From Pseudorhodobacter sp. PARRP1 (GTDB taxonomy: Bacteria > Pseudomonadota > Alphaproteobacteria > Rhodobacterales > Rhodobacteraceae), in assembly GCA_002256245.1 (NCBI GenBank), contig NKIU01000018.1:1-43337 (forward strand): DNA of 43,337 nt. Reading direction: 5' to 3'. This document shows positions 4,016 through 20,202 of the stretch, piece after piece. The first letter of the stretch is position 1. Each line of letters begins with the position of its first letter. The translations under genes were made by a program, and so were the position numbers. A model generated the notes under the pieces. It made no database searches and was not told the DNA's origin. It saw nothing but the letters and a program-made list of their open reading frames with translations.

Positions 4016-5329
4016 ATGGCCAAAATTGTCGTGTTCGGGATCGGTTATGTGGGTGTTGTCTCGGCAGCTTGCCTTGCCAAAGACGGCCATGAAGTAATCG
4101 CGGTGGACGTAGATCCGGGCAAGGTTGCCTCGATCAACGCAGGCCTTTCGCCCATCGTCGAACACGGCCTGCCAGAGCTGATCGCCGAGGTTTTTGCCGC
4201 AGGCAAGCTGACCGCCACTCTGGATGCCGCCGCCGCCGTGCGCGCCGCCGATGCGTCGTTTGTCTGCGTTGGCACCCCTTCCGCCGAGGATGGCTCTATC
4301 GGGCTGAAATACGTCGAAAGCTGCTGCCGCGCGATTGCCGCAGCGCTTCCCGGCAAGGATGGCTTCCATTCGGTGATCGTGCGCTCGACCATCGTTCCGG
4401 GCACGATGGAGAAAGTCTGCATCCCGATCCTTGAGGAATATTCCGGCATGGAGGCGGGCGTTGGGTTCGGCGTCGGCTACTACCCCGAGTTTCTGCGCGA
4501 AAGCACCGCCATTCAGGACTACTACGACCCCGGCCTGATCGTGTTCGGTGCGCTGGAGAAAAAGACCGCCGACTTCCTGACGATGCTGAACAAAGACCTG
4601 CCTTGCGATGTGAACGTCGTCGATGTGCGCTCGGCCGAGATGATCAAATACACCTCGAACGCTTGGCGCGCGGTGAAAGTCACGTTTGCGAACGAGATCG
4701 GCAATATCGCCAAGGCTTGCGGGCTGGATGGCCAGGCGGTGATGAAGATTCTGTGCTCGGATCACAAAGTGTCGATGAGCCCGTATTTCATGCGCCCCGG
4801 CTTTGCGTTTGGCGGATCTTGCCTGCCGAAAGATGTCCGCGCCCTGCGTTCCATCGCCGCCGATATCGAAGTGGCCTCGCCGCTGCTGGATGCCGTGCTG
4901 GTCGCCAATGCCGAACAGATCAACCGCGCCGAGGCGATGGTGATGGCGTCGGGGTCTACCTCGGTTGGCCTTGTCGGCATCAGCTTCAAGCCCGGCACCG
5001 ATGACATGCGCGAAAGCCCGCTTGCCGAACTTGCGGCGCGGCTGATCGACCAGGGCATGACCCTGAACGTCTACGACCCCTTCGTGCATGAAGCCTACGC
5101 CAACGACATGAGTGCGGCAGGCCGTGGCAACGATTACAACATTGATCTGAAGGACCGTCTGGTGCCGACGATCAAGGAACTGCTGGCGAAGTCTGACATC
5201 GTGCTGGTCGGCAACAAATACGATGACACGCTGGAGGAATTGAACGCCTCGACCCATCCGGTGATCGACCTGACGCGGATCAAGGCGGGCAAACGCTCGG
5301 GCGGCACTTATCAGGGCATTTGCTGGTAA
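4016..5329 (+). CDS. algD: GDP-mannose 6-dehydrogenase
   Basis: AlgD oxidises GDP-mannose with two NAD+ to GDP-mannuronate, the activated precursor of alginate, in the cytoplasm. The 437-residue length fits the family. An N-terminal Rossmann motif (GIGYVG, residues 8-13) binds NAD. The catalytic cysteine is C269 in FAFGGSCLPKD, at the place of the known active-site Cys of Pseudomonas AlgD. The C-terminal domain begins near residue 315 (GISFKPGTDDMRESP). I chose the ATG at 4016, well spaced from AAAGGA; a GTG three bases earlier is possible. It is the first gene of the operon, as in Pseudomonas, and its stop codon shares a base with the alg8 start. The UDP-glucose/UDP-ManNAc dehydrogenase relatives are less likely given alg8 and alg44 next door. 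Confidence 0.93.
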   Translation: MAKIVVFGIGYVGVVSAACLAKDGHEVIAVDVDPGKVASINAGLSPIVEHGLPELIAEVFAAGKLTATLDAAAAVRAADASFVCVGTPSAEDGSIGLKYVESCCRAIAAALPGKDGFHSVIVRSTIVPGTMEKVCIPILEEYSGMEAGVGFGVGYYPEFLRESTAIQDYYDPGLIVFGALEKKTADFLTMLNKDLPCDVNVVDVRSAEMIKYTSNAWRAVKVTFANEIGNIAKACGLDGQAVMKILCSDHKVSMSPYFMRPGFAFGGSCLPKDVRALRSIAADIEVASPLLDAVLVANAEQINRAEAMVMASGSTSVGLVGISFKPGTDDMRESPLAELAARLIDQGMTLNVYDPFVHEAYANDMSAAGRGNDYNIDLKDRLVPTIKELLAKSDIVLVGNKYDDTLEELNASTHPVIDLTRIKAGKRSGGTYQGICW

Positions 5330-6807
5330 TGATGATGCTGGGACATATCGCCTTTATCGCGGTGATGGTGGGGCTTGGCCTGAGCCTGCCCTTCCACGCG
5401 ATTGGCGATGTCGGAAGCGCATTGGTCGTGGTCGGGGTGATTGGCCTGTGGCGCTACACCTGGGCTGCGATCAACTTCGGGCGTGCGGCGCTGTTCCTGA
5501 AATGGGTCTATCCAGCGCGCAGGGCACGGGCGATGGCGGCTTATGCGGCCCTGCCCACGCCTGCGCATGCGTATTTCTTGGTGACCAGCTACAAGATCGA
5601 ACCCGAAGTTACGACGCGGGTTTATCAGGCTTTGTTCCGCGCGGCAGCGGCCTCTGCGGGCGGGGCGACGGTGGTGTGTTCGGTGGTCGATACCGCCGAC
5701 GCGCGCCTGATCCGCAATATCTTTGACCGGATGGCGGTGGATACCTCCACCACCCTCCTGATGGTCGACCAAATCGCAGGCACCGGCAAACGCGACGCCC
5801 TCGCGCGCTCCCTGCGCTTGATCGCAGGCGAGGCCCCAACTCGCCGCGACATCGTGCTGTTCGTCGATGGCGACAGCTGCGTGCCCGAAGACATCGTGGC
5901 GGCCACAGCGCCCTTCTTCACCAACCCCGATATGGGTGCTGTGACGACGGATGAAGAAGTCGAGATTCGCGCCACCGATATGCCGCTGTTCCGCGATTGG
6001 TTCATGCTGCGCTTTAACCAGCGGCAGGTGATGATGTCCTCGATGGGGCTGTCGGACCGCGTGCTGACCCTGACCGGACGGATGAGCGTGGTGCGCGCCG
6101 ATCTTGCCACCAACGCAGGTTTCATCCAGCAAGTACAAAGCGACTTCATCGACCATTGGCGCCTTGGTCGGGTGAATTTCCTGACCGGTGACGATAAATC
6201 CACTTGGTTCTGGCTGCTGAAGAACGGCTACAAGATGGGCTACCTGCCCGACGTGGCTTCGCTGTCGATGGAAAGCCAGCCGCGCCCCGGTTTTGTCGAT
6301 TCCGCGCTGACCCTAATGATGCGTTGGTTCGGCAACATGCTGCGCACCAATGGCCGGGCGCTATCTTTGTCGCCCAACAGAATCGGCTGGTTTACCTGGT
6401 GGTCGATCCTTGATCAGCGCGTCGGCATCTGGACCACGCTGGCAGGCCCGATCTCGGTGCTGTTGGGTGCTGCGTTTATCGAGCCCTTAGCGCTACCTGT
6501 CTACATCGCGTGGATCATGTTCACCCGCTACACCTATTGCTGGATTCTGGCGACAGTGCGGATGCAGCCCTTCCCGATCACCTATCCGTTCTTGCTGTAT
6601 TTCAGCCAGATCACCGGGGCGGCTGTGAAAAGTTTCGTGCTGTTCCGCCTGGATCGCCAACGCTGGACCCGGCAATCCACCCGCAAGGCGCGCGCTGTAT
6701 CGCTGCCGCTGGGCCAACGCCTGCAAGCCTATTCCTCGACTTTCTCTCACGCTCTGGCCCTTGGATGGCTGACTTTGGGCGTGGTTCTTTTGTCTGGCAT
6801 CGTCTGA
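5329..6807 (+). CDS. alg8: Mannuronan polymerase, GT2 glycosyltransferase
   Basis: Alg8 is the inner-membrane glycosyltransferase that polymerises GDP-mannuronate. The 492-residue protein has two N-terminal membrane helices (to about residue 60), a cytoplasmic GT-A core and four or so C-terminal helices. The core shows the nucleotide- and metal-binding DGD (D180-D182, FVDGDSC), a TDEEVEI segment, the acceptor-site TGDD (D288, D289) and a QR-V-W segment (DQRVGIWT) in the position of the family's QxxRW. Three ATG codons in a row (5329, 5332, 5335) overlap the algD stop, so translation is probably coupled to algD. The partner Alg44 is encoded directly downstream. Confidence 0.92.
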   Translation: MMMLGHIAFIAVMVGLGLSLPFHAIGDVGSALVVVGVIGLWRYTWAAINFGRAALFLKWVYPARRARAMAAYAALPTPAHAYFLVTSYKIEPEVTTRVYQALFRAAAASAGGATVVCSVVDTADARLIRNIFDRMAVDTSTTLLMVDQIAGTGKRDALARSLRLIAGEAPTRRDIVLFVDGDSCVPEDIVAATAPFFTNPDMGAVTTDEEVEIRATDMPLFRDWFMLRFNQRQVMMSSMGLSDRVLTLTGRMSVVRADLATNAGFIQQVQSDFIDHWRLGRVNFLTGDDKSTWFWLLKNGYKMGYLPDVASLSMESQPRPGFVDSALTLMMRWFGNMLRTNGRALSLSPNRIGWFTWWSILDQRVGIWTTLAGPISVLLGAAFIEPLALPVYIAWIMFTRYTYCWILATVRMQPFPITYPFLLYFSQITGAAVKSFVLFRLDRQRWTRQSTRKARAVSLPLGQRLQAYSSTFSHALALGWLTLGVVLLSGIV

Positions 6808-6827
6808 ATTCGTGAAGGATCGCTGAA

Positions 6828-7853
6828 ATGGAAACCAACACCGCGCTGACCCAAACGCTGCCCAACCTGCCGGTTCAGGGCGAGCATCCTTTGCTGGATA
6901 TTCCCTTCGTCGTCGGTATCGACGGGCGGCAGTTCAAGGGTGAGCGGCTGTCACTGGTCGCAGCCGAGATCACCGGCCTGATGGACCCGGCCTTGGATGG
7001 GGCCACCCGCCTGATGCGCTTCATGTTCCCGTTCAAAGGCTTCAGCGTCACGCTGGAAGTGCTGGGCCAAGTGCAATCTCTGGATCGCGGCAACGGTCAC
7101 GCCACCGTCAGCTTCGTCGACCCGGCGGCCGAGCATCTGCCGCAGCTGCGCCATCTGATCAACTCTTACATCGCGGGCGATCTGGTGGCCTTGGGCGAGG
7201 TGATTGGCGTCGCCCCGTCGATCCCATCCCCCGCCAACCGCGCCGCCGCGATGAACGGCAAGAGCCTGACCTTCAGCCGTGTGTTGGGCAGCGCTGGGCT
7301 GGCCCTTGCCACCTTGGCCTTGCTCGCCGCCGTTGGCACCTTAGCCTATAACCGCATCTTCACCCAACCCCTCGCCGCGCCCGGTCTGGCCGTGCAAGAT
7401 GGCATGACGCTGACCGCCACCGCAGGCGGACAGGTTGATTACGTCAACCTCGCCGCCGCCAAGGGCGAGGTTGCCTTCACCATCCGCGCCACCTCGGGCG
7501 AGATGTTGTCGATTGCGATGCCCTGCGATTGCACCGCAACGGCCCTTGCCGCAACCGTCGGCGCGACCGTCAGCGCAGGCGAGCCGATGTTGAACGTCCA
7601 TACCGCTGACGCGCCCGTTTTGCTGACCGCAACCGTGCCCGCCGCTGATGTGCTGACGCTGGCCTTTGCCGATCACGTCAAGGTGCAGTTCGGCGATGGC
7701 AGCACGATCAACGCCGCCGTCGATCCCGCCAGCCTGCGGGCTGAGGCCACCGACGCAGGCCTGCCGGTGCGGCTGATCCCTGCCACAGCTTTGCAAGCCG
7801 ACCAAGCAGGCCAGTTGGCCAAGCTGACCATCATCAAGAAATCCTGGTTCTAA
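6828..7853 (+). CDS. alg44: Alg44-like polymerase co-subunit with degenerate PilZ domain
   Basis: Alg44 is the membrane partner of Alg8; in Pseudomonas its N-terminal PilZ domain binds cyclic di-GMP and switches polymerisation on. This 341-residue protein keeps the layout: a cytoplasmic domain (1-150), one transmembrane helix (about 152-174) and a periplasmic HlyD-like domain (about 190-340). However, the first 33 residues contain no arginine at all, so the RxxxR motif that grips cyclic di-GMP is missing, and the D/NxSxxG loop is also not recognisable (LSLVAAEITG). Control by cyclic di-GMP through this protein is therefore doubtful. The gene lies 20 bases after alg8, with AAGGA before the ATG. 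It is slightly shorter than the Pseudomonas protein (about 390 residues). Confidence 0.85.
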   Translation: METNTALTQTLPNLPVQGEHPLLDIPFVVGIDGRQFKGERLSLVAAEITGLMDPALDGATRLMRFMFPFKGFSVTLEVLGQVQSLDRGNGHATVSFVDPAAEHLPQLRHLINSYIAGDLVALGEVIGVAPSIPSPANRAAAMNGKSLTFSRVLGSAGLALATLALLAAVGTLAYNRIFTQPLAAPGLAVQDGMTLTATAGGQVDYVNLAAAKGEVAFTIRATSGEMLSIAMPCDCTATALAATVGATVSAGEPMLNVHTADAPVLLTATVPAADVLTLAFADHVKVQFGDGSTINAAVDPASLRAEATDAGLPVRLIPATALQADQAGQLAKLTIIKKSWF

Positions 7854-7920
7854 ATTCCATCAGCTCGCCTTTCCACCACGATGAATTTCCACCTCGGTCA
7901 ATGTCTTAGCGGAGCGCGCA

Positions 7921-9393
7921 ATGAAAACGTCGATTTACCCCTTGGTTCTGTGCGGTGGCATGGGATCGCGGCTCTGGCCGATGTCACGGGTCGAGCAGCC
8001 AAAGCAGTTTCAACCGGTGCAGGGCAAGGGTAGCCTCAGCTACTTCCAGACCACCCTGCAACGCCATCGCGGTGGTGTGTTCAAGCCGCCGATCATCGTG
8101 ACCAGCGCGGGGCAGACCCAACTGGTCGCGCGGCAGATGCGCGATCTGCAACTGACGGGTTCGGTGATTGCCGAACCGATGGGGCGCAACACGGGGCCGG
8201 CGGTTCTGGCGGCGGCACTGGTGGCCATCGCCGAAGACCCGGAAGCCCAACTTCTGGTGCTGCCGTCCGATCACATCATCACGGGGGATCTGAACGCCAC
8301 CGTGGTTGCGATGCAGCAAGCGGCGGACAATGGTCGCATCGTGCTGTTCGGCGTGCCGCCCGCTTACCCGGAAATCGGCTATGGCTATATCGTCGACGGT
8401 GGTGGCTATACCAACTATCCGGGCTTGCACCGGGTCGAAACCTTCATCGAAAAACCGCCGTATGAACGCGCCCAAGCGCTGATTTCCGGTGGCTATTCCT
8501 ATTGGGCCTCGGGCATCAGCCTGTTCCGCGCCGATGTGCTGATCGAAGAATTCCACCGCTTCGAGCCTGAAACCTTCTATGCCGTCTCTGCCGCCGTCAG
8601 CGCGGGCAAGATGATCAATGGCGCGTTGCATCTGGAAGAAACCGCCTTCGTCAAAGCCAAATCCGAACCGACCGAGCGTTTGGTCTTCGAACGCTCCACC
8701 GCCGTCGCCCTCGCCCCGGCGCGGGATATTCAGTGGGATGATGTCGGCGCCTGGAATGCGGTGCAGAAAATCTCTGCCCGCAACGCGCAGGGCAATGTGA
8801 TCAATGGCGATGTGTTCGCGCTGGATACGCATAATTCGCTGATCCAAAGCGGCTCGCGCTTAGTGGCGGTGATCGGCCTGCGCGACATGATCGTCGTCGA
8901 TACCCCCGATGCGCTGCTGGTGATGAACCGCGACCACTCGCAGAATGTCAAACAGGTGGTCGAGCATCTGAAAGGCCTGAAGCGCCCCGAAGTCACCAGC
9001 CACCTGTTGCGCGATACCAACTGGGGGCAGGTCGAATTGCTGGCCAAGGATGATGGCTATGACATGCGGATGCTGGTGGTCGCCCCCGGCGCGTCGCTGC
9101 GTGTCAACGGCACTGGCCACGGCCCCAGCCTGCTGACCTTCCTGAACGGCGGTGGCGTCTATGAACGTGAAGGCAAGATGGTGGTGGTAGAGCGCGGCGA
9201 TAGCGTCACCATTCCCGCCGACGTGACGCTGCCCTTGACCAACACCGGATCGAAAGAACTGCGCGCGATGCAGCTTTTGATGAGCTATGACGCCGAAAAC
9301 GTCGCCGAAGTCGCCGCTTCGGCGGTCAAAGCCGTGGCCTCGTTGTTCACCAAGCCCGAACCGCTCGAACCGGCCACAGGGGCGGTGCAGTAG
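7921..9393 (+). CDS. algA: Mannose-1-phosphate guanylyltransferase (AlgA type, isomerase half degenerate)
   Basis: The 490-residue protein has the size of the two-domain AlgA/ManC enzymes, which make GDP-mannose from mannose-1-phosphate and also isomerise fructose-6-phosphate to mannose-6-phosphate. The N-terminal nucleotidyltransferase is intact: GGMGSRLWPMSR at residues 12-23, the sugar-binding FIEKP near 178, and LPSDH near 116. The C-terminal cupin domain starts near residue 365, but the metal-binding signature of type II isomerases (QMHHHRAEHW) is replaced by NGTGHGPSLLTF. I therefore expect guanylyltransferase activity but no isomerase activity. It supplies the GDP-mannose used by AlgD. 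The isomerase and the phosphomannomutase (AlgC) must be encoded elsewhere. The next gene starts one base after its stop. Confidence 0.88.
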   Translation: MKTSIYPLVLCGGMGSRLWPMSRVEQPKQFQPVQGKGSLSYFQTTLQRHRGGVFKPPIIVTSAGQTQLVARQMRDLQLTGSVIAEPMGRNTGPAVLAAALVAIAEDPEAQLLVLPSDHIITGDLNATVVAMQQAADNGRIVLFGVPPAYPEIGYGYIVDGGGYTNYPGLHRVETFIEKPPYERAQALISGGYSYWASGISLFRADVLIEEFHRFEPETFYAVSAAVSAGKMINGALHLEETAFVKAKSEPTERLVFERSTAVALAPARDIQWDDVGAWNAVQKISARNAQGNVINGDVFALDTHNSLIQSGSRLVAVIGLRDMIVVDTPDALLVMNRDHSQNVKQVVEHLKGLKRPEVTSHLLRDTNWGQVELLAKDDGYDMRMLVVAPGASLRVNGTGHGPSLLTFLNGGGVYEREGKMVVVERGDSVTIPADVTLPLTNTGSKELRAMQLLMSYDAENVAEVAASAVKAVASLFTKPEPLEPATGAVQ

Positions 9394-9394
9394 A

Positions 9395-10900
9395 ATGACG
9401 CGCGCCTTGGCCCATCTGGCAACTGTTGTGCTGATCAGCGCAAGCATGGCACAGGCGGCCCCCAAGCTTGCCGACAGATCCGCTTTGCAAGCGGGCATCG
9501 CCGGATTGCAGCAAGACGCAACCGCGATGCAAGTGCAGGGGTTCGGCTATGATGCCGTGGCGCAGATTGCCGGGCTTTACGGCCTGACCCCCGCGCCACG
9601 CCCGCAAACACAGCTTGACGTGACCTTGCCTGTCGGCGATGCCGCCAAGATCGCGGCGGGCGATACCCAGATCGCGCTGACTCAGCTGTCAATCTCGGAA
9701 GGCACCAACAACCAGTTGCGCGTGCAGCAGGCCCAACATGGCAGCAAGGCTGGGATTTTCATCAGCGCGGGCGTGATCAGCCTGCAAGATCTGGCGACCG
9801 CCGCCCAAGCGCAGGGCATCGCGGGCATCGCGATGGCCGACGGCGTTGTCACCCTGTCGCGCCCCTTGGTGATCTGGCAGGGTGCGACTTTGCTGATCCA
9901 TCCCGGCGATGTGTTGCAGATGCAAGCGGCCGAGGGCGCTTTCCTTTTGAACTTCGGCCAGCTTGATCTGCGCGGCGCGACCCTGCGCAGCAATGTCGCC
10001 GCAGACGCGCCCGAGTCCCAATATCGCCCCTTCGTGCTGACCTCTGGCTCTGGCCAAGTCTATGCCGAGGCCAATCAGTTTCAGGCCTTGGGCATGGCCG
10101 ATCTTGGCCCTTTCGCGGGCTTCGTGATCTCGACCCAAGGGCTGTTCGCCTCGACCACGCCTTCGGTTCTGCGCGGCAACCAGTTTACCGACATGGGTGG
10201 CGTCGCTTTGATCGGCACCAAAGGCGCGCAGGCCACGCAAAACGCCTTTCTGGCCTCACGCGGGGGGGCGCTGACTTTGGCGCAGGTTGGCCAAGGCGCG
10301 GCACTGGGCAATGTGATTTACCAGACTAAAGCCGGGGCTGGCCTGCGCGTCACTGCCCGATCCAAGGATATGCTGGTCGCGGGCAATCTGGTGTTGGGCG
10401 GTCAAGGCAATGGCATACAGGTCGATGGTGGCAGCTTTGGCATCACCCTGCGCGGCAATGCGGTGCTGGACAACGCCCAAACCGGGCTTGCCGCCAAAAC
10501 CGCCTCGTGCCTTTCGGTGCAGGATAACGTCATCGCCGCCAATGGCGCGGTTGGCCTGCGGCTGACCAAGACAGGTTACGTGCAAGTCACGGGCAATGCG
10601 CTGGTGAACAACGCAGGCTCTGCTATTGCGGTCGGCGCGCAACTGACAAAGGCCCGGCTGGACCTGTCCGGCAATCTGCTGGCACAGAACCAGATCGGCC
10701 TGACAGGGGCGGCATTGCAGCTTGTCACCCTGCGCGACAACGATCTAAGCGCGCAGCTTCCCCGCATTTTCGACGGCGAGTTCGCCCAGCATCAGGCGGC
10801 CTATCTGACCGCTGGCCGCACCGACCACGCGGCCATTTTCCAAATTTCGAGCGCAGCGGCCCAGGATGCCGATTTCGCCTCGATCTGCGCGCAGGAGTAG
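9395..10900 (+). CDS. AlgG-like periplasmic beta-helix protein lacking the epimerase motif
   Basis: A 501-residue protein with an N-terminal signal peptide (cleavage likely after ASMAQA, near residue 21) and a C-terminal half of parallel beta-helix coils with repeated GN-V and GN-L turns. The linker GVVTLSRPLVIWQGATL and the following AFLLNFGQLDLRGATLRS strongly recall AlgG, the periplasmic mannuronan C5-epimerase, as does its place in the operon. The catalytic DPHDRS motif of AlgG is absent; no D-P-H occurs anywhere in the protein. It may have lost epimerase activity and kept the structural role of AlgG in the periplasmic export complex, or act on a different bond. The start at 9395 follows directly after the algA stop; an in-frame upstream extension inside algA is unlikely because it would destroy the signal peptide. 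Confidence 0.75.
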   Translation: MTRALAHLATVVLISASMAQAAPKLADRSALQAGIAGLQQDATAMQVQGFGYDAVAQIAGLYGLTPAPRPQTQLDVTLPVGDAAKIAAGDTQIALTQLSISEGTNNQLRVQQAQHGSKAGIFISAGVISLQDLATAAQAQGIAGIAMADGVVTLSRPLVIWQGATLLIHPGDVLQMQAAEGAFLLNFGQLDLRGATLRSNVAADAPESQYRPFVLTSGSGQVYAEANQFQALGMADLGPFAGFVISTQGLFASTTPSVLRGNQFTDMGGVALIGTKGAQATQNAFLASRGGALTLAQVGQGAALGNVIYQTKAGAGLRVTARSKDMLVAGNLVLGGQGNGIQVDGGSFGITLRGNAVLDNAQTGLAAKTASCLSVQDNVIAANGAVGLRLTKTGYVQVTGNALVNNAGSAIAVGAQLTKARLDLSGNLLAQNQIGLTGAALQLVTLRDNDLSAQLPRIFDGEFAQHQAAYLTAGRTDHAAIFQISSAAAQDADFASICAQE

Positions 10901-10904
10901 CACC

Positions 10905-12347: not shown

Positions 12348-12359
12348 AGGATGATCGTC

Positions 12360-13442
12360 ATGCAGCGCTTCTATCGGATATCTCGCTACTTCCTGCCGGT
12401 GATGTTTTTCGGCTACGTCCCCTTTGCCAATTTGGCGGTCTATGAACATCCCGGCGGCAAGCTGGCGGCATTTGACATGGCCGCCCTGCGTGGCACCGTC
12501 ACTCACAGCTTTGACACGCTGTATAAAACCGCGATGCCGCACCGCGAGCCTTCGATTGGCGTGATGGGCGCGGCCCGCTATCTGCTGATCGGGGAGGGTC
12601 GCCAGGGCGTGGTCGTGGGCCGCGATGGCTGGCTGTTCACCTCGGAAGAAACCCGGCCCTTGCCCGCAAGCTTGCAGCCTTCGGTCGCCAAAATCGCCGA
12701 GGTCCGCGATCTGCTCGCCATCCATGGCACCAAATTGATCGTGGTGCCGCTTCCCGCCAAGGTTGACGTACAATCGGCTCATGCAAGCGTGCCGGAACTG
12801 TCAGCTGAGATGGCAGGCTTCTACGCCGATCTTCTCGCCAATCTGAACGCCGCCCAGATTGAGGCCGTCGATGCCCGCACCCCATTGGTCGAACTGGTGA
12901 AGTCCAAACCCGCCTTCTTCGCCACCGATACCCACTGGACCCTCGACGGTGCCGCCGCCGTGGCTATCGCCGTGGCCAACTCCGGCCTGATTCCGTTGGG
13001 CGCCGCCGATATGACCCGCACCGAAGAACCCAAAGCTGACTTTGCTGGCGATCTGGTGTCCTACGTGACCACCGAAGGCATTGCGCCGATGCTGGGCCTG
13101 GATCGCGAGGACGCCAACCCATATGTCGTTGCAGCCCCTGCCGATACGTCAGATATCTTTGGCGCCGCGCAGGTGGATGTCGTGCTGATCGGCACCTCTT
13201 ACAGCGCCAATCCGCATTGGAGCTTTGCCGAGGCCCTGAAACTTGATCTGCACCAGGATGTGTTGAACGCCGCCGAACCGGGGCTTGGTCCGGTCAAGCC
13301 GATGGACAAATACCTCGCCTCAGAAAGCTTCCGCGACACACCACCAAAAGTGGTGATCTGGGAAATTCCGCTGCGCTATCTGACCGATCCGAAACTCTGG
13401 GACGGCCATAAAATCGGGCAGGAGCTGGCAAGTGCAGATTAA
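12360..13442 (+). CDS. algJ: SGNH-type alginate O-acetyltransferase AlgJ
   Basis: AlgJ is a membrane-anchored periplasmic SGNH-like acetyltransferase that takes acetyl groups from AlgI. The protein has an N-terminal hydrophobic anchor (residues 8-25) and the paired catalytic motifs of the ALGX/ALGJ family: TDTHW with D190 and H192, and GTSYS with S280. With the ATG at 12360 the Asp and His fall at the same numbers as in Pseudomonas AlgJ, and the ribosome site GAAGG is then nine bases away. The ATG at 12351 (three residues longer) sits directly against that site and is less likely. The length is 360 residues, close to the family. The 3' end overlaps the next gene by 11 bases. Confidence 0.9.
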   Translation: MQRFYRISRYFLPVMFFGYVPFANLAVYEHPGGKLAAFDMAALRGTVTHSFDTLYKTAMPHREPSIGVMGAARYLLIGEGRQGVVVGRDGWLFTSEETRPLPASLQPSVAKIAEVRDLLAIHGTKLIVVPLPAKVDVQSAHASVPELSAEMAGFYADLLANLNAAQIEAVDARTPLVELVKSKPAFFATDTHWTLDGAAAVAIAVANSGLIPLGAADMTRTEEPKADFAGDLVSYVTTEGIAPMLGLDREDANPYVVAAPADTSDIFGAAQVDVVLIGTSYSANPHWSFAEALKLDLHQDVLNAAEPGLGPVKPMDKYLASESFRDTPPKVVIWEIPLRYLTDPKLWDGHKIGQELASAD

Positions 13443-14244
13443 ATCGCTGATCATCGCCAGCATGTTGCTGACCAGCTTTATGGCGGCTCCGTTGCGCGTG
13501 CAGGCCGAAGACCGCGTGGTGCCGCCGACGGTCGTGTCAAAGGTCTATCTGAGCAAAGAAGAAAAAGCCGCTAAGTTGGCCGAAAGATTGGCGCAGCAGA
13601 AGGCGGCGCGCTTGGCTACAAAACCTCGGGTTGACCCCGTGGTGTCCCGCTTGAAAACCCTGCACAAACGAATGGTTGCCAAGCAAGAGTTGACCGCCAC
13701 TGAAATGCAAGAACTTGCGGATTCCGGCGATGGCCTTGCCGCATTTTACTACGCTCGCAGGCTTGAAGACACTGGCAGATCCAGCGTGCTGCCCTCTGCG
13801 GTGCATTACTACGCAATGGCATCCTACCTAGGTCGCGAATTTGCCATGATCCGGATGATCGCACTGATGAAATCGCCCGACGTCACTCTGTCTGACAAAC
13901 AGATCAAAAGCGGCAAGGATGCGCTGGTCAAGCTGGCGCGCTCTGGCACACCCGCCGCAGCCCTTGGCCTCGCCGATATGTACGCCATTGGTAAACCCTT
14001 TCCCCAAGACGCTGCCGAGTCGCGCAAATGGCTGATGCAGGCCGCCAAGGCGGGCGATGCCAATGCTGCGCAAAAACTGGCGCAGGCCGCGATGATGCCG
14101 CAAGATGGCAGTCCCCTTGATGTGCGCGCCGCTCGCGCTGCACTTGAGCTGATGCTCGCCTCGAGCGAACCCGGCAAGGTCGCAATGGCGCAGACGCTGC
14201 TTGCCCGCCTTGACGCCACAACCCCGACGGAGATTTCCCAATGA
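13432..14244 (+). CDS. Short periplasmic Sel1-repeat protein (AlgK-like position)
   Basis: A 270-residue protein with a signal peptide (cleavage near residue 25, after LRVQAE or thereabouts) and a charged helix-rich stretch (residues 35-60, many K, A and E). At least two Sel1/TPR-type repeats follow, around 100-135 (GLAAFYYARRLED) and 160-210 (AAALGLADMYAIGKPFPQD, then WLMQAAKAGDANAAQKLAQ). Sel1 repeats are also the fold of AlgK, the outer-membrane lipoprotein that stabilises the export complex. This one is about half the length of AlgK and has no lipobox cysteine, so I do not call it AlgK. The GTG start overlaps algJ and follows a GGAG site. I infer a scaffold role in polymer export or acetylation. 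Confidence 0.75.
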   Translation: MQIKSLIIASMLLTSFMAAPLRVQAEDRVVPPTVVSKVYLSKEEKAAKLAERLAQQKAARLATKPRVDPVVSRLKTLHKRMVAKQELTATEMQELADSGDGLAAFYYARRLEDTGRSSVLPSAVHYYAMASYLGREFAMIRMIALMKSPDVTLSDKQIKSGKDALVKLARSGTPAAALGLADMYAIGKPFPQDAAESRKWLMQAAKAGDANAAQKLAQAAMMPQDGSPLDVRAARAALELMLASSEPGKVAMAQTLLARLDATTPTEISQ

Positions 14245-15572
14245 ACGCAGCTTTCCTGCTTCGCGCGGCGCTTGCCCTGACGCTGACATCCGCACCTGCT
14301 CTGGCGCAAACGGCGACGCATTTCGATTGTTCGAATTACGAGTTCAACACCGCTCTGCCCGCGATCGAAGGTAAAGACGGTGTGTTTTTCCGCACCTTCG
14401 CCGATCTGCGTATGCAGCACCCGCTGGACGATCGCACAGTGAATATGATTGGCCAGCTGGCGAAAGTTCTGAAAGAAAACGGCACCACGCTGGTTTACGT
14501 CACCATCCCGTCAAAATCACAGGGCATGCCGCAATATCTGCCCGCTCATGCAGCCGATTACGGATTTCAACCCGAAGTAGCCGGGGCGATCTATACCGAT
14601 TTCATCACCCGCCTGAACAGGGCCGGGGTCGATGCCCCGGACATGATGACCGCCTTGCGGGCCAATAAGGGCAGCGAGCGTGCGTTCTTCGGGGCAGATT
14701 TCCACTGGACCTCGCAAGGCGCGCGGCTGGGGGCGCAGGCGATTGCAGCGCATATCAAGGTCGAGCCGGCCTATGCTGATCTGCCCAAGCAAACGTTCGT
14801 CACCACAGCGATCGCGCCGGAAGTTGCGTTCTCGGGTATGCGTCGCACCTTGCAAGGCTACTGCGCCAATGCCCTGCCGCGGACCGAGACTATGGCCTAC
14901 AAAACCGAAGCTGCCGCCAGTACGGATGACGCAGGCACTGGGCTTGAGATCTTTGCTGCATCGAACGAGGTGCTGCCTGCGGTGCTTGTCGGCACGTCCT
15001 ATTCCGACAGCCCAATCAATAACTTCGCGGGCTTTCTGGCAGAATATTCTCAGCTTGATATCGTGAACTACGCCATCACCGGTGGCAATCAGTTCGGCTC
15101 GATGACATCGTACATGACGTCAGACGAATTCAAGGCGCAGCGCCCGCGGTTTTTGATCTGGGAAAACCCGATCTACAACAACCTTGCGCAATACGGGGCC
15201 GCCCCGCTGGAAGAACTGATTGCCGCCGCAGGCAACACCTGCACCAAATCCTTGCCCGTCACCAAGCTGGACGCCAACACCGTCGAAGCGTCGCTGGCGG
15301 GTCTGAAAGTGGGATCTGATGACGCCATCTACGCAGACTTCGGCGCAGAAGGTCCGCGTATCGCCAATTTTAGCATCGAAGGTGCTGACGGATTAATCCG
15401 GCACTCTAAAATAGAACGCAGCCAAAGGTTGCGTGCTACTGGAAATTTCTACTTAGGGTTGTCGGCGTTCACCATGCCCAATATCACGAAAGTGACGGTG
15501 CATTTTGATCGCCCTGTCAGTGACACCACAACTCTGAACTTCTGCGCGAATACCAAAGGAGACGCGTCATGA
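14241..15572 (+). CDS. algX: AlgX-like periplasmic O-acetyltransferase
   Basis: AlgX is the terminal O-acetyltransferase of alginate, with an SGNH-like domain followed by a carbohydrate-binding module. The 443-residue protein has a cleavable signal peptide (residues 1-22, ALA-Q) and the catalytic set D153 and H155 (GADFHWTSQGA) plus S253 (VGTSYSDSPINN). The substrate-groove segment IPSKSQGMP near residue 92 is also typical. The C-terminal 120 residues would be the binding module. The start overlaps the previous stop (ATGA), and the gene end overlaps algF in the same way, so expression is translationally coupled. Together with AlgI, AlgJ and AlgF it makes a complete acetylation set. Confidence 0.9.
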   Translation: MNAAFLLRAALALTLTSAPALAQTATHFDCSNYEFNTALPAIEGKDGVFFRTFADLRMQHPLDDRTVNMIGQLAKVLKENGTTLVYVTIPSKSQGMPQYLPAHAADYGFQPEVAGAIYTDFITRLNRAGVDAPDMMTALRANKGSERAFFGADFHWTSQGARLGAQAIAAHIKVEPAYADLPKQTFVTTAIAPEVAFSGMRRTLQGYCANALPRTETMAYKTEAAASTDDAGTGLEIFAASNEVLPAVLVGTSYSDSPINNFAGFLAEYSQLDIVNYAITGGNQFGSMTSYMTSDEFKAQRPRFLIWENPIYNNLAQYGAAPLEELIAAAGNTCTKSLPVTKLDANTVEASLAGLKVGSDDAIYADFGAEGPRIANFSIEGADGLIRHSKIERSQRLRATGNFYLGLSAFTMPNITKVTVHFDRPVSDTTTLNFCANTKGDAS

Positions 15573-16207
15573 TGAAAAATAGCAGCTTGTTGATTGCTCT
15601 ATGTGCTGGGCTGTGCGGCATTTATGCCACTGCGGGCCTGGCTCAGGATGGCGGTCTTTACGCAGACGTGCCCGATCCCAGCGCCAGCTTTGTGCGCGTG
15701 GTCAGCGCCGCTCCGACCAATGCCGTGATCGACACCAAGACGTTCAATCAACTGGATAACGGGATTTCCGGCTATGTCGTGGTCGCGAATCCCGGCGTGA
15801 TTAAATTGGTCACAGGCGTCGATGACGCCACCGTCAACGTCGAAGCGGGCAAATACTATTCCTACCTCGTGGGCGCTGATGGCACCAAAACGCTGGTACC
15901 AGAAGACATCACCTCGAACCCTGCGCAGGCAGTGATCAGCTTCTTCAACCTCAGTGATCTGCCGAAAGTTGATCTCTACGTGCCTGCCGCCAAGGCAGTG
16001 GCGCTTCCGGGTGTGGCGATGAACAGCGCTGCGAATGTGGCGCTCAAGGCCCCGCTGACCCTCGATTTCGAAGTCCGCGATGGCGACAAAGTGTTGGCCA
16101 CGCTGCCCGCGGTAGATCTGCAACGGCGCGGCGGCGTCGCCATCGTGCTGCGTGGCAGCTCTGGCAACTATACCGTGGCAGGCTCTGACTCGGCGCTTGC
16201 CAACTAG
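15569..16207 (+). CDS. algF: Alginate O-acetylation protein AlgF
   Basis: AlgF is a small periplasmic protein needed for alginate O-acetylation, probably passing acetyl groups or bridging AlgJ and AlgX. The 212-residue length matches the family. A signal peptide ends near residue 25 (GLAQ-D). The body holds two beta-rich domains, with segments FVRVVSAAPTN, GKYYSYLV and VISFFNLSDLPKVDLYVPA typical of AlgF. No catalytic residues are expected. Its ATG overlaps the algX stop. Assignment rests on length, position and overall pattern. Confidence 0.85.
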   Translation: MMKNSSLLIALCAGLCGIYATAGLAQDGGLYADVPDPSASFVRVVSAAPTNAVIDTKTFNQLDNGISGYVVVANPGVIKLVTGVDDATVNVEAGKYYSYLVGADGTKTLVPEDITSNPAQAVISFFNLSDLPKVDLYVPAAKAVALPGVAMNSAANVALKAPLTLDFEVRDGDKVLATLPAVDLQRRGGVAIVLRGSSGNYTVAGSDSALAN

Positions 16208-16221
16208 CGTTAATGCCCGAC

Positions 16222-16247
16222 CGCCGCGCAGGTCACTCTGCGCGGCG
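16222..16247 (+). repeat. Perfect 10-bp hairpin between algF and the large Sel1 gene
   Basis: Arms CGCCGCGCAG and CTGCGCGGCG (16222-16231, 16238-16247) enclose GTCACT. There is no T-run, so rather than a terminator it may be an mRNA-stabilising hairpin or a processing site that sets different levels for the upstream genes and the last two genes of the operon. Confidence 0.6.
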
Positions 16248-16270
16248 TCATACCGGCCAAAGGATACACC

Positions 16271-19039
16271 ATGACACGCGCCACCGCTCTGTTTTCCCGC
16301 CCGATCTTGCCGCTCTGCCTTGCCACGCTGGCGGCTCTGCCTGCCTTTGCGCAAACGGCTGACACGCAGACCGTGGCGGTCAATTTCGAGCCGCCACGCA
16401 TCGAGGTGGAAAAGATCTGCGCCCCAACCACACCCGACGAGCAGCTTGCGTCGCAATGGGCGACATGGGACGGCAAAGCTCTGCCCGAAATCGCCCCCGA
16501 TTTGATCCAGCGCGACTTGCGCCGTCTCATGGATGCCGACGCGATCCGCTGGTTTGACACGATCGAAAAGGCCCAAGCCCTGATGCCCTCGGTCGACCCG
16601 CAATTCGGAGCGGATAAAGCCCTACTGGCACGGGTCGAGTTGTTGATCGCTGCAGGCCGCCTGAAGGAATTGACCAACCAACGCCTTGTCGATCAGTTGA
16701 TGGCATCTGAAAATGGAGGCTCACCACGCCTTCAGAACATTCTGGCCGACTATCTGATGAACGGAACCGGCATCGCGGTGAACAAGGAAAAGGGCCTGCA
16801 ATTGCTGGTCGCGGCAGGTTATGGCGGCAACGCCGATGCCCTGCTGAAGATCGTCGCCTTGCAAGAAAAAGGCGAGCAAATTCCCGCATGGGATGTCCCG
16901 CCCGATATCGCCGTGACGATGGCCTTCGGTGCTTTGGTCGGCAAGATGGACCCGATGATCTGTGATCGCGTTGCGCGTATCGCGCGCGAATACATGAATG
17001 GAACGGTCGTCACCCGCGATGTCGGTCTGGCCGAAAAGTGGTTCCGCTTTGCCGCCGACATGGGCGATGGGGTATCGGCTTGGAAAGTGGCCGAAATGCA
17101 CATGCGATCCGAGGATCTGGTCAAATCGAACGACACCCTGATCACCTATCTGACCAAAGCTGCCGACGCCGGGCTGCCCTATGCCCAGGTTTCGCTGGGG
17201 CGTCTTTACGAACAGGGGGCCTTGGTCGGCAAGAAAGATGTCGATCAAGCCCGCAGGCTTTACGAAAAAGCCGCCAAATTCGGCGACCGTCCCGGTTTGC
17301 TGCGCAACGCGCTGTTCCTGCAATCCGAGGCGAAAGTGGATGCGGCCTATCAGCCCGCCTACCGTGCAGCCCTTGAAGAATTTGCCAAACGCGCGGATGC
17401 GCCCGCGTGGATCTTTATCGCGCTGGGCGATTTCGAAATAGCCGAAAAGGGGCGTTGGGCCGGTGAGGCCTCGGCGATTGCTTATTACGAAAAAGCCGAG
17501 GCAATGGGGGAAGTGGGTGCCACCAAACGCCTGACCCCGCTTCGCTTTCGTTATGCGACGACGCCAAAAGAGTTTTACAAGGTGATCGACGAAGTCATCG
17601 ACACGGTCCACACCGGCGGCGAGATTGACCCGATGAATGGCTTGAAAGACGCCTTCACGTGCCGCGCGCCGCAAGCGCCGCAGCGCAACGAGGCGTTGTA
17701 TTGGGGCGGTATCAGTGCCGCCACCGGCACCAAGACAGTCGAATTCACCCCGACACAACTGCTTGAACTGGTGGCCAACCCCAACCCGCAAGACATCGCG
17801 CGCCTGCAAAGCCAAGCGCTTTATGGCCGCCCCAGCGCGATCGCGCAGTATATGGCGTACTTGCAGCGCAGTGATGCTCCTGCCGAGGAACGCGACTTCT
17901 GGGAGGATTATTCCAAGCGTTTTGAGGGTATCAACACCGCACGCGGACGGCTAGAGCGCAAATTTGCCAAGATCGGCCAGAATCTAAGCGATCCGTCGGC
18001 ATATCTGCACGCGGCGCTTGCCGAAGGCGATTCCGAGGCCGAGATCGATCTTGCAGAAATCATGCTGGAACAAGACCCAACCGCCAATGCCGCAGCAGCC
18101 CTTGCAGCGGTTGAACCCTTGGCCGAAAACGGGGTGGGCGCTGCGATGCGGATGCTGCCAAACCTTGACGCCAAAAGCTTTCCCGATGTGAAAGCGGTCT
18201 ATCTCAAATATGCCGACGTGATCGCGACACGCGGCGATTTTGATGCCATCGTGTTGGCGCTGCCGTTTCAGAGCGATGCCGCCCAGCAGCTGGATTTTGT
18301 GCGCCGCGCCACCACCGCGACCGATTGCAGCTTTGATCAAATCAAAAGCTTGGCCGATGCGATGGGCCAACTCGGCGATCACGAGGCCTTTGCGAAATGG
18401 ATAGATGTGGCGGAATTCCTGAGCGACAATGACGCATGGCGTCTGGTGCAACTGGGCGACCTGCTGCGGCTTTATGGCGGTGAGTCGATGCAGACCGCCG
18501 AAGTCGACTTCTATAACCGCGGCTACAGCGGGGGAAACACTACGGCCATCCACCGCCTTCTTGATGTGTACGGCGATGATCGCGCCCCGCTGTTCAACGC
18601 GGCAACCGCGGCCGATCTTTACGTCGCCTTGGTCGAAAACAGCCCGCCACAGGATATTGCCCGCGCACTGTCGCGCCTTGCTGTGGCGTCTTCAACCATC
18701 AAGGAAAGCGCCTATGCGCGCCTTGATGTGCCCAAGCTTTACCGCACCGCCGCCGATGCTGGCAATCCGGCAGGGATGCGCGAATATGGCAAGCTGATGC
18801 AGGTCAGCGCAAAATCGGCAGCCGAGTTGGAATCCTCTACACTCTGGCTCGCAAAGGCTGCGAAGGCTGGCGATGTTCCAGCGATGTTGAGCTATGCCGA
18901 CGCGTTGGCCTTCGGTCTGGGTGTGCCCGCTTCGCGTGACGAAGCCCTGGTCTGGCTGCAAAAAGCGGCGGAAGCGGGAAACACCGACGCCAGCGCGAAA
19001 GTGCGCAGCCTGAAGCTGCAACCGGAGGTCAGCCAATGA
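16271..19039 (+). CDS. Large periplasmic Sel1-repeat scaffold protein
   Basis: A 922-residue protein with a signal peptide (cleaved near residue 28, AFAQ-T) and many Sel1-like alpha-helical repeats over most of its length. Examples are EKWFRFAADMGDGVSAWKV near 255, YAQVSLGRLYEQGALVG near 310, AGNPAGMREYGKLMQ near 835 and MLSYADALAFGLGVPASRD near 877. AlgK, the Pseudomonas outer-membrane scaffold for alginate export, is a Sel1/TPR protein of about 475 residues; this one is nearly twice as long and lacks a lipobox. In Pseudomonas a repeat protein and the AlgE porin form the exit channel. Here no porin gene is present, so this protein may organise a different exit route (inference). The start follows AAAGGA at good distance, and the end overlaps the algL-like gene by four bases. 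Confidence 0.8.
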   Translation: MTRATALFSRPILPLCLATLAALPAFAQTADTQTVAVNFEPPRIEVEKICAPTTPDEQLASQWATWDGKALPEIAPDLIQRDLRRLMDADAIRWFDTIEKAQALMPSVDPQFGADKALLARVELLIAAGRLKELTNQRLVDQLMASENGGSPRLQNILADYLMNGTGIAVNKEKGLQLLVAAGYGGNADALLKIVALQEKGEQIPAWDVPPDIAVTMAFGALVGKMDPMICDRVARIAREYMNGTVVTRDVGLAEKWFRFAADMGDGVSAWKVAEMHMRSEDLVKSNDTLITYLTKAADAGLPYAQVSLGRLYEQGALVGKKDVDQARRLYEKAAKFGDRPGLLRNALFLQSEAKVDAAYQPAYRAALEEFAKRADAPAWIFIALGDFEIAEKGRWAGEASAIAYYEKAEAMGEVGATKRLTPLRFRYATTPKEFYKVIDEVIDTVHTGGEIDPMNGLKDAFTCRAPQAPQRNEALYWGGISAATGTKTVEFTPTQLLELVANPNPQDIARLQSQALYGRPSAIAQYMAYLQRSDAPAEERDFWEDYSKRFEGINTARGRLERKFAKIGQNLSDPSAYLHAALAEGDSEAEIDLAEIMLEQDPTANAAAALAAVEPLAENGVGAAMRMLPNLDAKSFPDVKAVYLKYADVIATRGDFDAIVLALPFQSDAAQQLDFVRRATTATDCSFDQIKSLADAMGQLGDHEAFAKWIDVAEFLSDNDAWRLVQLGDLLRLYGGESMQTAEVDFYNRGYSGGNTTAIHRLLDVYGDDRAPLFNAATAADLYVALVENSPPQDIARALSRLAVASSTIKESAYARLDVPKLYRTAADAGNPAGMREYGKLMQVSAKSAAELESSTLWLAKAAKAGDVPAMLSYADALAFGLGVPASRDEALVWLQKAAEAGNTDASAKVRSLKLQPEVSQ

Positions 19040-20202
19040 TGTTCCGGCTCACCCAGGCCGCCGCTATCGTGGCGATGCTTTTCCCGGCGCAGGACGCCAT
19101 CGCGCAGACCTACAGAGAAGCGGGGGACTCGAAGCCCTTCGGCTGCTTCGATCCGGTGCCACCAGTCACGGCCCTTGCCATCCCCAGCCGTTATAAGGAT
19201 GACAGCAAGAACCGCTCTGAGTTTGACGCCGAAGCCAACGCCGCGGTTGAGGCTGCGCTGAACCCGCTGGACGATTTCATCAACCTACTGGTCAAGAACG
19301 CCAACGCCGCTTTGCAAATCACCGCCCCGCGCGAAGTTGATCCCGAAGCTTCGACCAGTCCCGCGATCGACGAAACTCAGCCCGATCTGGCACTGCAAAC
19401 CCAGATCGCCGATTGTGTGGTGGATCGTATCCACGACTGGGCCGCCGCCGATGCCTTGGCCGATATAAAGACCCAAGGCGCGCAACTATCGGTGCCCAGC
19501 CGGATCGCAGGGCTTGCGATGGCCTATGCGCAGGTGCGCGGCCTTGCCATCCAAGATACGCGCCAGCCTGCGATTGAGGCTTGGCTGACCGCCCGCATGC
19601 AATCCAGCATGGCGTTTTTCGACAACGCAGCCCCGCCGAAATCCCGCCAGAACAACCTGCGTGCTTGGGCAGCGTTGGCGGCGGCGCAGGTTGGTCTGTT
19701 GCAAAACGACACAGCGATGACCACATGGGCCGCGGATTCCATCAAGCTGGTGCTGTGCACCGCCACGTCCGAAGGGGCATTACCGAATGAGATGTGGCGT
19801 GGCAAATTGGCACTCCACTATCAAATCCATGCTGTCGCGCCGCTGGTCGTCGCCACCGCCCTGTTGCAACCGACCCACCCTGATTTGGTCGCCAGTTGCG
19901 ACAGTGCGCTGCTGCGCGTGGTGCACTTTACGCTCAAAGCTGTTGAAGATCCAAAACTGGTCGAGGCGCTCACAAAGAAGCCGCAAGAGTTCGATCCGGC
20001 CACTGAGATGAAACGTGCTTTCCAGTTCGCATGGCTCGCCGCGCTTCAAACCTTTGCAACAGAGCCCGAGTTCACTGCATTTGCCGCAAAGTTCGAAGTT
20101 CTCAGCAACTCGAAACTCGGTGGCAAGCAAAGCTTGCTTTGGCCTGAACTCGATGCAAAAGCCAACGCCGCTAAACCACAACCGACGCCGGTCACGCCTT
20201 AA
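19036..20202 (+). CDS. AlgL-like (PL5) alginate lyase homologue with altered active site
   Basis: AlgL degrades mislocalised alginate in the periplasm and is also needed for the export complex. The 388-residue protein has a signal peptide (cleaved near residue 24, AIAQ-T) and the PL5 helical toroid pattern. The motif GALPNEMWRGKLALHY keeps the catalytic tyrosine (Y262) and the arginine seven residues before it (R255). The active-site NNHSYW motif reads NNLRAW here, so the histidine is replaced by L208. In PL5 enzymes this His helps to neutralise or abstract the proton at C5, so activity on mannuronate is doubtful. It may be a structural member of the periplasmic complex or prefer a modified substrate. 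It is the last gene of the operon and overlaps the Sel1 gene (ATGA). Confidence 0.8.
   Translation: MMFRLTQAAAIVAMLFPAQDAIAQTYREAGDSKPFGCFDPVPPVTALAIPSRYKDDSKNRSEFDAEANAAVEAALNPLDDFINLLVKNANAALQITAPREVDPEASTSPAIDETQPDLALQTQIADCVVDRIHDWAAADALADIKTQGAQLSVPSRIAGLAMAYAQVRGLAIQDTRQPAIEAWLTARMQSSMAFFDNAAPPKSRQNNLRAWAALAAAQVGLLQNDTAMTTWAADSIKLVLCTATSEGALPNEMWRGKLALHYQIHAVAPLVVATALLQPTHPDLVASCDSALLRVVHFTLKAVEDPKLVEALTKKPQEFDPATEMKRAFQFAWLAALQTFATEPEFTAFAAKFEVLSNSKLGGKQSLLWPELDAKANAAKPQPTPVTP

Follow-up and report, generated by a model that had tools for sequence, protein, structure and literature searches.

We describe a twelve-gene operon from Pseudorhodobacter sp. PARRP1 that probably encodes an alginate-type, synthase-dependent machine for O-acetylated poly-beta-D-mannuronate, whose product would leave the cell by a factor encoded elsewhere. 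The window, by which we mean the whole stretch of 43,337 nucleotides that was analysed, carries the genes on one strand at 4016-20202 in the order algD-8-44-A-G-I-J-s1a-X-F-s1b-L, with algD starting at the ATG at 4016 (Table 1). Pfam and NCBIfam families back D, 8 (GT2), A, G (Beta_helix), I (MBOAT), J and X (PF16822), F, s1b (Sel1) and L (Alginate_lyase), and the tight spacing that had been predicted for twelve same-strand genes is seen in overlaps of 11 bases between J and s1a and of 4 bases each at s1a/X, X/F and s1b/L.

Table 1. Genes of the operon and its upstream neighbours, with the main basis of each assignment
Feature	Position	Strand	Basis
Beta-helix and RTX protein, probable secreted partner	584..2674	+	RTX repeats
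LuxR-type gene upstream, possible regulator	2953..3750	+	GerE domain
AlgD-like GDP-mannose 6-dehydrogenase	4016..5329	+	best PDB match 1mfz, 412.7 bits, residues 4-438
Alg8-like GT2 polymannuronate synthase	5329..6807	+	Pfam GT2, kept motifs, Alg8 tree
Alg44-like copolymerase, degenerate PilZ domain	6828..7853	+	canonical Alg44 HMM E 4.7e-11
AlgA-like GDP-mannose pyrophosphorylase, degenerate isomerase half	7921..9393	+	TIGR01479 368.2 bits vs cut-off 372.95
AlgG-like right-handed beta-helix, predicted non-catalytic	9395..10900	+	PDB AlgG match E 5e-7
AlgI-like MBOAT acetyl exporter	10905..12347	+	PF03062
AlgJ-like SGNH acetyl relay protein	12351..13442	+	PF16822 211.8 bits
s1a, small Sel1/TPR-type solenoid, probably exported	13432..14244	+	AlphaFold2 model, fold search
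AlgX-like acetyltransferase, intact triad	14241..15572	+	PDB AlgX match E 1.3e-33
AlgF-like acetylation adaptor	15569..16207	+	PF11182 34.6 bits vs cut-off 34.4
s1b, Sel1/TPR solenoid of 922 aa, AlgK-like in its repeats, probably exported	16271..19039	+	Sel1, AlphaFold2 model
AlgL-like PL5 protein, H202 to Leu	19036..20202	+	PF05426, PDB AlgL match

The operon was originally predicted to be a rearranged one. It does differ in order from that of Pseudomonas, but belongs to a conserved lineage and is no one-off local rearrangement. The gene order is identical in all 20 fetched relatives with an Alg8 at least 54% identical, which is not chance, and it is kept in 76 of 80 named loci, these being the best 80 of 118 relatives; three of the other four end at contig ends and one has only algL. 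The proposed check for the same order in other Rhodobacterales succeeded, three Rhodobacterales plasmids included, whose copies carry piecemeal annotation. The nearest kin is Cypionkella. A luxR-like gene, not always adjoining D, occurs in the stitched sequence of 12 loci out of 21, the window included. Named loci were found by a scan with two peptide patterns, one of which contains NLRAW, and the set is therefore biased towards AlgL proteins with Leu at the H202 place; it shares genomes with the Alg8-fetched loci, and counts from the two sets are dependent. The upstream flanks of named loci often end at G, A or 44, and short or incomplete sequences were left out of the X, G, s1b, s1a and other counted sets (L032 and L037 are absent from alignment A2, L032 and L042 from A3, and L045 has no algL). 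Searches of open-licence literature yielded no description of the operon. Judged by sequence, it is a portable gene set recurring in many alphaproteobacteria, and it differs from the known alginate machine in its fixed order and its losses.

AlgA would supply GDP-mannose, with mannose-6-phosphate coming from elsewhere, and AlgD would convert it to GDP-mannuronate. The pyrophosphorylase motif of AlgA is kept and its isomerase domain is still recognisable (22.0 bits in one search and 25.1 bits in another, against a cut-off of 23.6); the isomerase motif H.H[RK].E[HY], present in 8 of 9 reference loci, is found in 0 of 73 family AlgA rows, some of them cut by locus ends. Tests for two families found no other phosphomannose isomerase in the genome, which we count against the favoured reading. 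The second-best PDB match of AlgD, a UDP-glucose dehydrogenase, scores 243.7 bits against 412.7 for 1mfz, a gap large enough to mark AlgD as a GDP-mannose type and not a UDP-glucose type. Alg8 keeps its DGD, TGDDKSTW and RW motifs in 21 of 21 rows, and the operon family forms one supported clade in the Alg8 tree. Alg44, for which Pfam gives only a sub-threshold HlyD_3 match, is recognised by profile comparison at 98.8% probability and keeps the periplasmic PCDC. The PilZ c-di-GMP motif is RxxxR/DxSxxG, and its RxxxR part, present in all four canonical proteins, is missing from all 21 aligned rows and, by pattern, from all 22 named rows. From this we infer that c-di-GMP control of Alg44 has been lost; Alg8 and Alg44 would polymerise the chain and pass it to the periplasm without that motif.

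AlgI, AlgJ, AlgF and AlgX would then acetylate the chain in the periplasm. As had been predicted, the acetylation set keeps its catalytic residues: AlgX of the window retains D153, H155 and S253, AlgF matches PF11182, and among named sequences GG.WHG of AlgI is present in 54/54, D.HW of AlgJ in 54/54 and its serine motif in 52/54. The D-H-S triad of AlgX is kept in all 57 sequences with algF (56 named plus the window) and lost in all 21 without the acetylation set, and algF is found only in loci with a kept triad. On the s1b tree this corresponds to two changes (18 rows in one case, two Martelella rows in the other), each of which may be loss or gain and is read here as loss. Across the compared loci, the acetylation set and the triad stand or fall together, with AlgX itself retained. 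Because the triad tracks the presence of algF, acetylation looks functional in the window operon and would be expected to occur in the cell. The disappearance of the AlgX catalytic residues in both AlgIJF-less lineages also provides a natural experiment that parts the structural from the acetylating role of this protein.

AlgG gives a partial NCBIfam AlgG match (43.8 bits against a cut-off of 700). DPHD/DPHE is the catalytic motif of the AlgG epimerase; DPHDRS is not kept in the alignment to PDB AlgG, neither DPHD nor DPHE occurs in any of 76 sequences, and no D, E, H, K, R or Y column reaches 90% conservation. AlgG would serve as a non-catalytic beta-helix sleeve, so that no G residues would be made inside the cell. 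The AlgL of the window has Leu for H202 and Arg for K66, with one of four core residues lost. Leu at H202 recurs in 78 of 81 sequences of the set biased by the NLRAW pattern and in all 20 rows of the less biased set found via Alg8; equivalents of R249 and Y256 are present in 81/81, and 59 columns are conserved at 90% or more across these 81 sequences. The claim that four components had lost their catalytic residues stands for the AlgA isomerase motif, Alg44 RxxxR and the AlgG motif, but not in full for AlgL, which keeps N201, R249 and Y256. According to the accessible part of one study (PMC8829089), an H202A variant of AlgL had no detectable activity in vitro and behaved like wild type in vivo. 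AlgL here would act as a binding protein or a very weak clearing protein.

The Sel1 pair had been placed at the AlgK and AlgE positions, between 44 and G; s1a in fact sits between J and X, and s1b between F and L. That both are Sel1-repeat proteins is supported by Pfam for s1b, and for s1a, for which no Pfam family was reported, by an all-helical AlphaFold2 model (pLDDT 88.8) and a fold search with Sel1 proteins on top and AlgK chains at ranks 27, 34, 37 and 39; s1a is, by its model, a Sel1/TPR-type solenoid. The model of s1b (pLDDT 89.1) is essentially all helical, which rejects a hidden barrel. s1b matches the canonical AlgK HMM at E 1.2e-6, with a best domain of about one repeat, and an AlgK profile at 93.4% probability over 217 columns; AlgK is absent from its PDB sequence matches (E 0.1) and from the 50 fold matches listed. 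In the family, the AlgK HMM matches 52 of 75 s1b (E 1e-3) and 11 of 70 s1a (E 10). A lipobox is sporadic in s1b (3/75, versus 4/4 in canonical AlgK), and no conserved one was found in the eight operon proteins scanned, for which we reject lipoprotein anchoring. Since about one repeat accounts for the match of the window protein, s1b is not upheld as a clear AlgK orthologue: it is a Sel1 solenoid lacking the lipobox of an AlgK-type TPR/Sel1 outer-membrane lipoprotein and resembling one only at repeat level. For signal peptides we relied on visual inspection and on a hydrophobicity scan, in which s1a, F and s1b have an N-terminal hydrophobic segment and G, X, L and J have none. Together, s1a and s1b would form the periplasmic scaffold, the role of AlgK in Pseudomonas.

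How, then, would the polymer cross the outer membrane? As predicted, no AlgE was recognised: its HMM has no match at E 1e-3 in the core or fetched flanks of the family loci, and the Pfam search, which detected AlgE in 4/4 Pseudomonas-type controls, placed none of 19 operon-bearing genomes above its cut-off, with a lone sub-threshold score of 13.8 bits (G040). We also looked for algE or algK just outside the operon, the result named beforehand as refuting, and found neither, with AlgE sought by HMM in core and flanks and by Pfam in the genome itself. Among substitutes, BBP2_2 is above cut-off in 0/19 operon genomes, with one sub-threshold match (G144), and a BcsC barrel is absent from the own genome. 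A porin conserved in the flanks is likewise rejected, as neither an AlgE-HMM match nor such a shared gene family occurs there and the plasmid copies have no AlgE-HMM match. One OPX protein is encoded elsewhere in the genome, and nothing ties it to the operon. No exit component was found, which counts against the favoured reading. Of the predicted distinct pathway with its own exit route, the acetylated polymannuronate-type part, with intact acetylation motifs and no AlgE, is retained; the exit is conjectural, and would be an outer-membrane factor encoded elsewhere and common to the hosts.

It is conceivable, though in our view unlikely, that export is canonical and uses a diverged AlgE-type porin elsewhere in the genome that profile searches missed. 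Pfam Alginate_exp scores drop fast as sequences diverge (43.5 bits for the second alginate-type locus of G474), 5 of 11 alginate-type genomes searched give no score, and the search of the own genome with one AlgE protein, which gave no match, had no control in the same search. However, the 19 genomes, cores and flanks have yielded only that one weak score, and the Alg44, AlgA and AlgG motifs are lost too, so that the rest of the machine is not canonical. We regard as quite improbable that the polymer is not exported, leaving a periplasmic acetylated polymannuronate made by inner-membrane and periplasmic parts only. This would suit the window operon, none of whose proteins is predicted to be inserted in the outer membrane or attached to it (a barrel was not found, the eight proteins scanned have no conserved lipobox, and s1b is helical), and the plasmid-borne modules, 3/3 of those read being without an AlgE-HMM match. 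Yet a beta-helix/RTX protein adjoins the window operon, its N-terminal domain recurs beside seven further acetylating-type loci, and RTX repeats are of a type seen in secreted proteins; this recurrence suits a polymer reaching the outside. Retention also sits poorly with the harm done by periplasmic alginate in P. aeruginosa, where AlgL clears it (accessible part of PMC8829089), given that the AlgL site here is altered. Even less probable is a different uronate polymer, with the altered AlgL and AlgG sites serving a new substrate: the tight conservation of AlgL and its consistent change at H202 are unlike a decaying pseudoenzyme, but the GDP-mannose type of AlgD, the intact pyrophosphorylase motif of AlgA and the lack of any conserved charged column in AlgG speak against it.

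Beyond export by a factor encoded elsewhere, we tentatively raise a broader possibility, that of a self-contained alginate-type class, on chromosomes and plasmids of Rhodobacterales and Hyphomicrobiales, without the PilZ c-di-GMP motif or a dedicated pore. The 922-residue periplasmic s1b might thread the acetylated polymannuronate through a pore of the host that has so far had no connection with polysaccharide export, or the polymer might stay periplasmic, with any epimerisation taking place outside by the beta-helix/RTX protein. Such operons would represent a second and widely distributed blueprint by which alphaproteobacteria make an alginate-like polymer, and the outer-membrane crossing of these polymers becomes testable outside a pathogen.

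The accessible part of an account of 'atypical' alginate operons (Bundalovic-Torma 2020, PMC7112194) does not name the alphaproteobacterial module, its Sel1 genes, the motif losses or the co-loss involving AlgX and AlgIJF. More distant alginate-type loci of Rhodobacteraceae ('type B', e.g. L053-L068) share Alg8-, AlgD- and often AlgA-like genes with the window operon; both of those inspected for the isomerase motif, L055 and L066, have it intact. However, their Alg8 is about 34% identical, their gene order is different, and in three such genomes an Alginate_exp barrel lies about 10 kb from alg8. The operon of Pseudomonas and Azotobacter, algD-8-44-K-E-G-X-L-I-J-F-A, has homologues of D, 8, 44, A, G, I, J, X, F and L in common with ours, as well as the synthase-dependent logic, an Alg8 with catalytic motifs, a GDP-mannose dehydrogenase and an AlgI/J/F/X set with catalytic residues. 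By contrast, the window operon has another fixed order, two Sel1 solenoids and no AlgK lipoprotein, no AlgE barrel that we could find, an Alg44 without RxxxR, an AlgA without the isomerase motif, an AlgG without the epimerase motif (a judgement on the motif only) and Leu for H202 in AlgL. This comparison suggests that the porin, the lipoprotein, the c-di-GMP motif and the epimerase motif are droppable parts of an alginate machine, whereas AlgX and AlgG are retained even without catalytic residues.

The alginate-type operon of Pseudorhodobacter sp. PARRP1 is a conserved lineage and not a rearranged copy. The original prediction described a rearranged alginate-type operon, of which the set of twelve tightly spaced + strand genes stands, in the order algD-8-44-A-G-I-J-s1a-X-F-s1b-L (s1a and s1b encode two Sel1/TPR-type solenoid proteins); the notion of a one-off rearrangement does not, since the genes present maintain this order in all 20 loci found via Alg8. 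These loci lie in 18 genomes and share 54-70% Alg8 identity (window not counted), and 42 of 292 genomes of the same taxonomic order, including the 4.35 Mb source genome, have an Alg8 match at E 1e-10. The Alg8 proteins form one clade with full support, in which the tree tool flags some deep joins as possible long-branch artefacts. Twelve of the 20 loci carry algI, algJ and algF and eight do not; four of these eight gave no tblastn match for s1a, and one locus (L032) has both X and s1b split in two pieces.

The gene order, which the original prediction had suggested looking for in other Rhodobacterales, also recurs beyond this first set. A scan of named genomes for AlgL returned 118 relatives, and among the best 80 of these, which come from Rhodobacterales and some Hyphomicrobiales (Rhizobium, Agrobacterium, Martelella), 76 have a clear operon, 55 acetylating and 21 non-acetylating. 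The standard order holds across the genes in reach, with the exception of an extra D-like match after L in L135; s1a was unseen in six of the 76 and A in one (L193). The other four comprise three loci truncated by contig ends (L165, L167, L171) and one algL alone (L141). Among the same 80, the closest s1b (83% identity) and the closest AlgL (79%) are both from Cypionkella, so the source probably belongs in or close to that genus. AlgL matches were further found on 12 plasmid records, and all three plasmids inspected (Loktanella, Tateyamaria and Salipiger) carry the module in one piece, that of Tateyamaria with the acetylation set missing. Two genomes (G146 and G065, loci L044-L047) hold two operon copies each, an acetylating one without D and A and a non-acetylating one with both. 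The copies without D and A (L045, which also lacks algL, and L046) are second copies where L047 and L044 represent the fuller set, and this distribution suggests that the two copies draw on one precursor supply for two polymers.

Features of the window around the operon
Feature	Position	Strand	Location
Beta-helix/RTX gene	584-2674	+	5' of operon
LuxR-type gene		+	5' of operon
msrB, msrA, nusG			3' of operon
rpoB, rpoC (identified by eye)			beyond nusG

The window operon is of the acetylating type, and the catalytic residues of its acetylation set, predicted to be intact, are conserved across the family: the AlgI motif GG.WHG and the AlgJ motif D.HW occur in 54/54 sequences each, and the AlgX D, H and S are retained in all 57 sequences with algF (including the window and L171, truncated before algI). 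None of the 21 sequences without the acetylation set retains the AlgX triad. The Alg8-found set, whose genomes overlap with the named set, agrees (13/13 with the acetylation set, 0/8 without). The acetylation set changes at two points of the s1b tree (76 rows), one leading to a Rhodobacterales clade of 18 rows and the other to a pair of Martelella rows. Both of these lineages without the set have also lost the triad. A passage of PMC10641220 reports that acetylation in P. aeruginosa requires AlgX and that mutants of its active residues make non-acetylated polymer.

The two types of locus also differ in their neighbors. For the beta-helix at the N-terminus of the RTX protein, Pfam gives no family above cut-off. 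This domain turned up next to seven further distinct loci (L037 and L136 counted as one), all acetylating, in a search that took in the 80 named loci, three plasmid stretches, 20 long stretches and 20 more distantly related Alg8 loci. Its invariant residues fall within three blocks, NKG..GNGY, RH.V.F and RD.NFHGG.D. Azotobacter AlgE1-7 join a beta-helix to RTX repeats, as the window protein does. Those enzymes are described in part of PMC4432689 as extracellular C5-epimerases. An extracellular lyase or epimerase for the polymer is a plausible role for the beta-helix/RTX protein, which argues for an exported polymer. Six of the eight Alg8-found loci without algI, algJ and algF, and one plasmid, carry a gene of ~300-330 aa on the opposite strand upstream of algD (L041-L044, L048, L050, L238). 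Pfam (PF14099) identifies its product as a polysaccharide lyase, which one plasmid record calls "heparin lyase I family"; some copies start with a lipobox-like sequence, and none was found next to an acetylating locus. This lyase may act on the non-acetylated polymer.

Four components outside the acetylation set had been thought to have lost their catalytic residues, which holds for motifs of Alg44, AlgA and AlgG and only in part for AlgL. AlgD is of the GDP-mannose type. Alg8 motifs are intact in 21/21 Alg8-found rows; among 21 named-locus rows, nearly all clipped by the locus edge, GDD occurs in 19 (once as GDDKSSW), and the remaining two are short fragments. Alg44 can be aligned to canonical Alg44 and has the periplasmic PCDC motif in 19/22 named rows; its PilZ domain carries an EHP-type sequence in place of RxxxR, the c-di-GMP-binding motif, in 21/21 rows. 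AlgA keeps its pyrophosphorylase motif, and its isomerase domain is detectable (25.1 bits against a cut-off of 23.6) with the isomerase motif kept in none of 73 rows; a search for two families found no other phosphomannose isomerase in the source genome. The DPHDRS site of AlgG is gone, and its columns conserved at 90% (Gly, Asn, hydrophobic residues, one Gln and two Cys) include none that is charged, matching the expectation for a structural helix. AlgL has 59 columns conserved at at least 90%, with equivalents of P. aeruginosa R249 and Y256 in 81/81 sequences; 78 of these have Leu at the H202 position, and three from Agrobacterium-type loci (L169, L173, L174) have His there. The part of PMC8829089 concerned with these P. 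aeruginosa mutants describes H202A as inactive in vitro yet wild-type in vivo, and R249A, R249E and Y256F as not wild-type-like in vivo, so calling this AlgL "dead" would be an overstatement.

The searches bear out the predicted lack of a recognizable AlgE porin. PF13372 has no match in the source genome and none above cut-off in 19 operon genomes (one sub-threshold match, 13.8 bits, in G040); the same search recovered AlgE within the operon at E 1e-75 or better in four of four Pseudomonas-type genomes, and matched in 4 of the other 23 genomes. An algE just outside the operon, which would have spoken against the prediction, did not appear either, as a canonical AlgE HMM gave no match at E 1e-3 in the family's loci or their fetched flanks. 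Non-operon genes flanking 21 loci include a luxR-like gene in 12 and scattered ABC-transporter-like genes in 12. The source genome has no BBP2_2 or BcsC barrel, and one OPX protein away from the operon. Since the barrel searches were empty, s1a and s1b are modeled as helical Sel1/TPR-type solenoids (mean pLDDT 89 each), and eight operon proteins scanned share no conserved lipobox, no outer-membrane protein is predicted among the operon products.

Judging from the motifs, the module would synthesize and acetylate its polymer and not epimerize it. Alg8 and Alg44 would polymerize GDP-mannuronate, AlgI, AlgJ, AlgF and AlgX would acetylate the chain, AlgG and the two solenoids would guide it, and AlgL would watch over the polymer, which would probably exit through a host-supplied pore. 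Export is the weakest step of this mechanism.

Alginate-type operons of other families (L224, L227, L229, L230) also encode Sel1 proteins, of roughly 900-990 aa, and have no AlgE-HMM match within the fetched stretch; among their genomes, Alginate_exp occurs only in that of L229 (G584), on a different contig. Alg44 RxxxR is intact in the two aligned, L227 and L229, and its loss therefore marks the family of the window operon. The distant type B loci of Rhodobacteraceae (L053-L068) have an Alg8 only ~34% identical, D, often A, and RTX-repeat and LuxR-like matches, with an Alginate_exp barrel ~10 kb from alg8 in three genomes; one genome (G192) holds a type B and a module-type locus ~40 kb apart. 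We found no description of this alphaproteobacterial module in the open-licence literature searched. A section of PMC7112194 already reports atypical alginate operons without algKE as a class, which makes the module less novel. Compared with the Pseudomonas-type alginate operon, the module departs in AlgE, AlgK, the PilZ motif and the AlgG motif; we therefore treat it as a variant of an alginate-type machine, and its sequences suggest that it would work like one.
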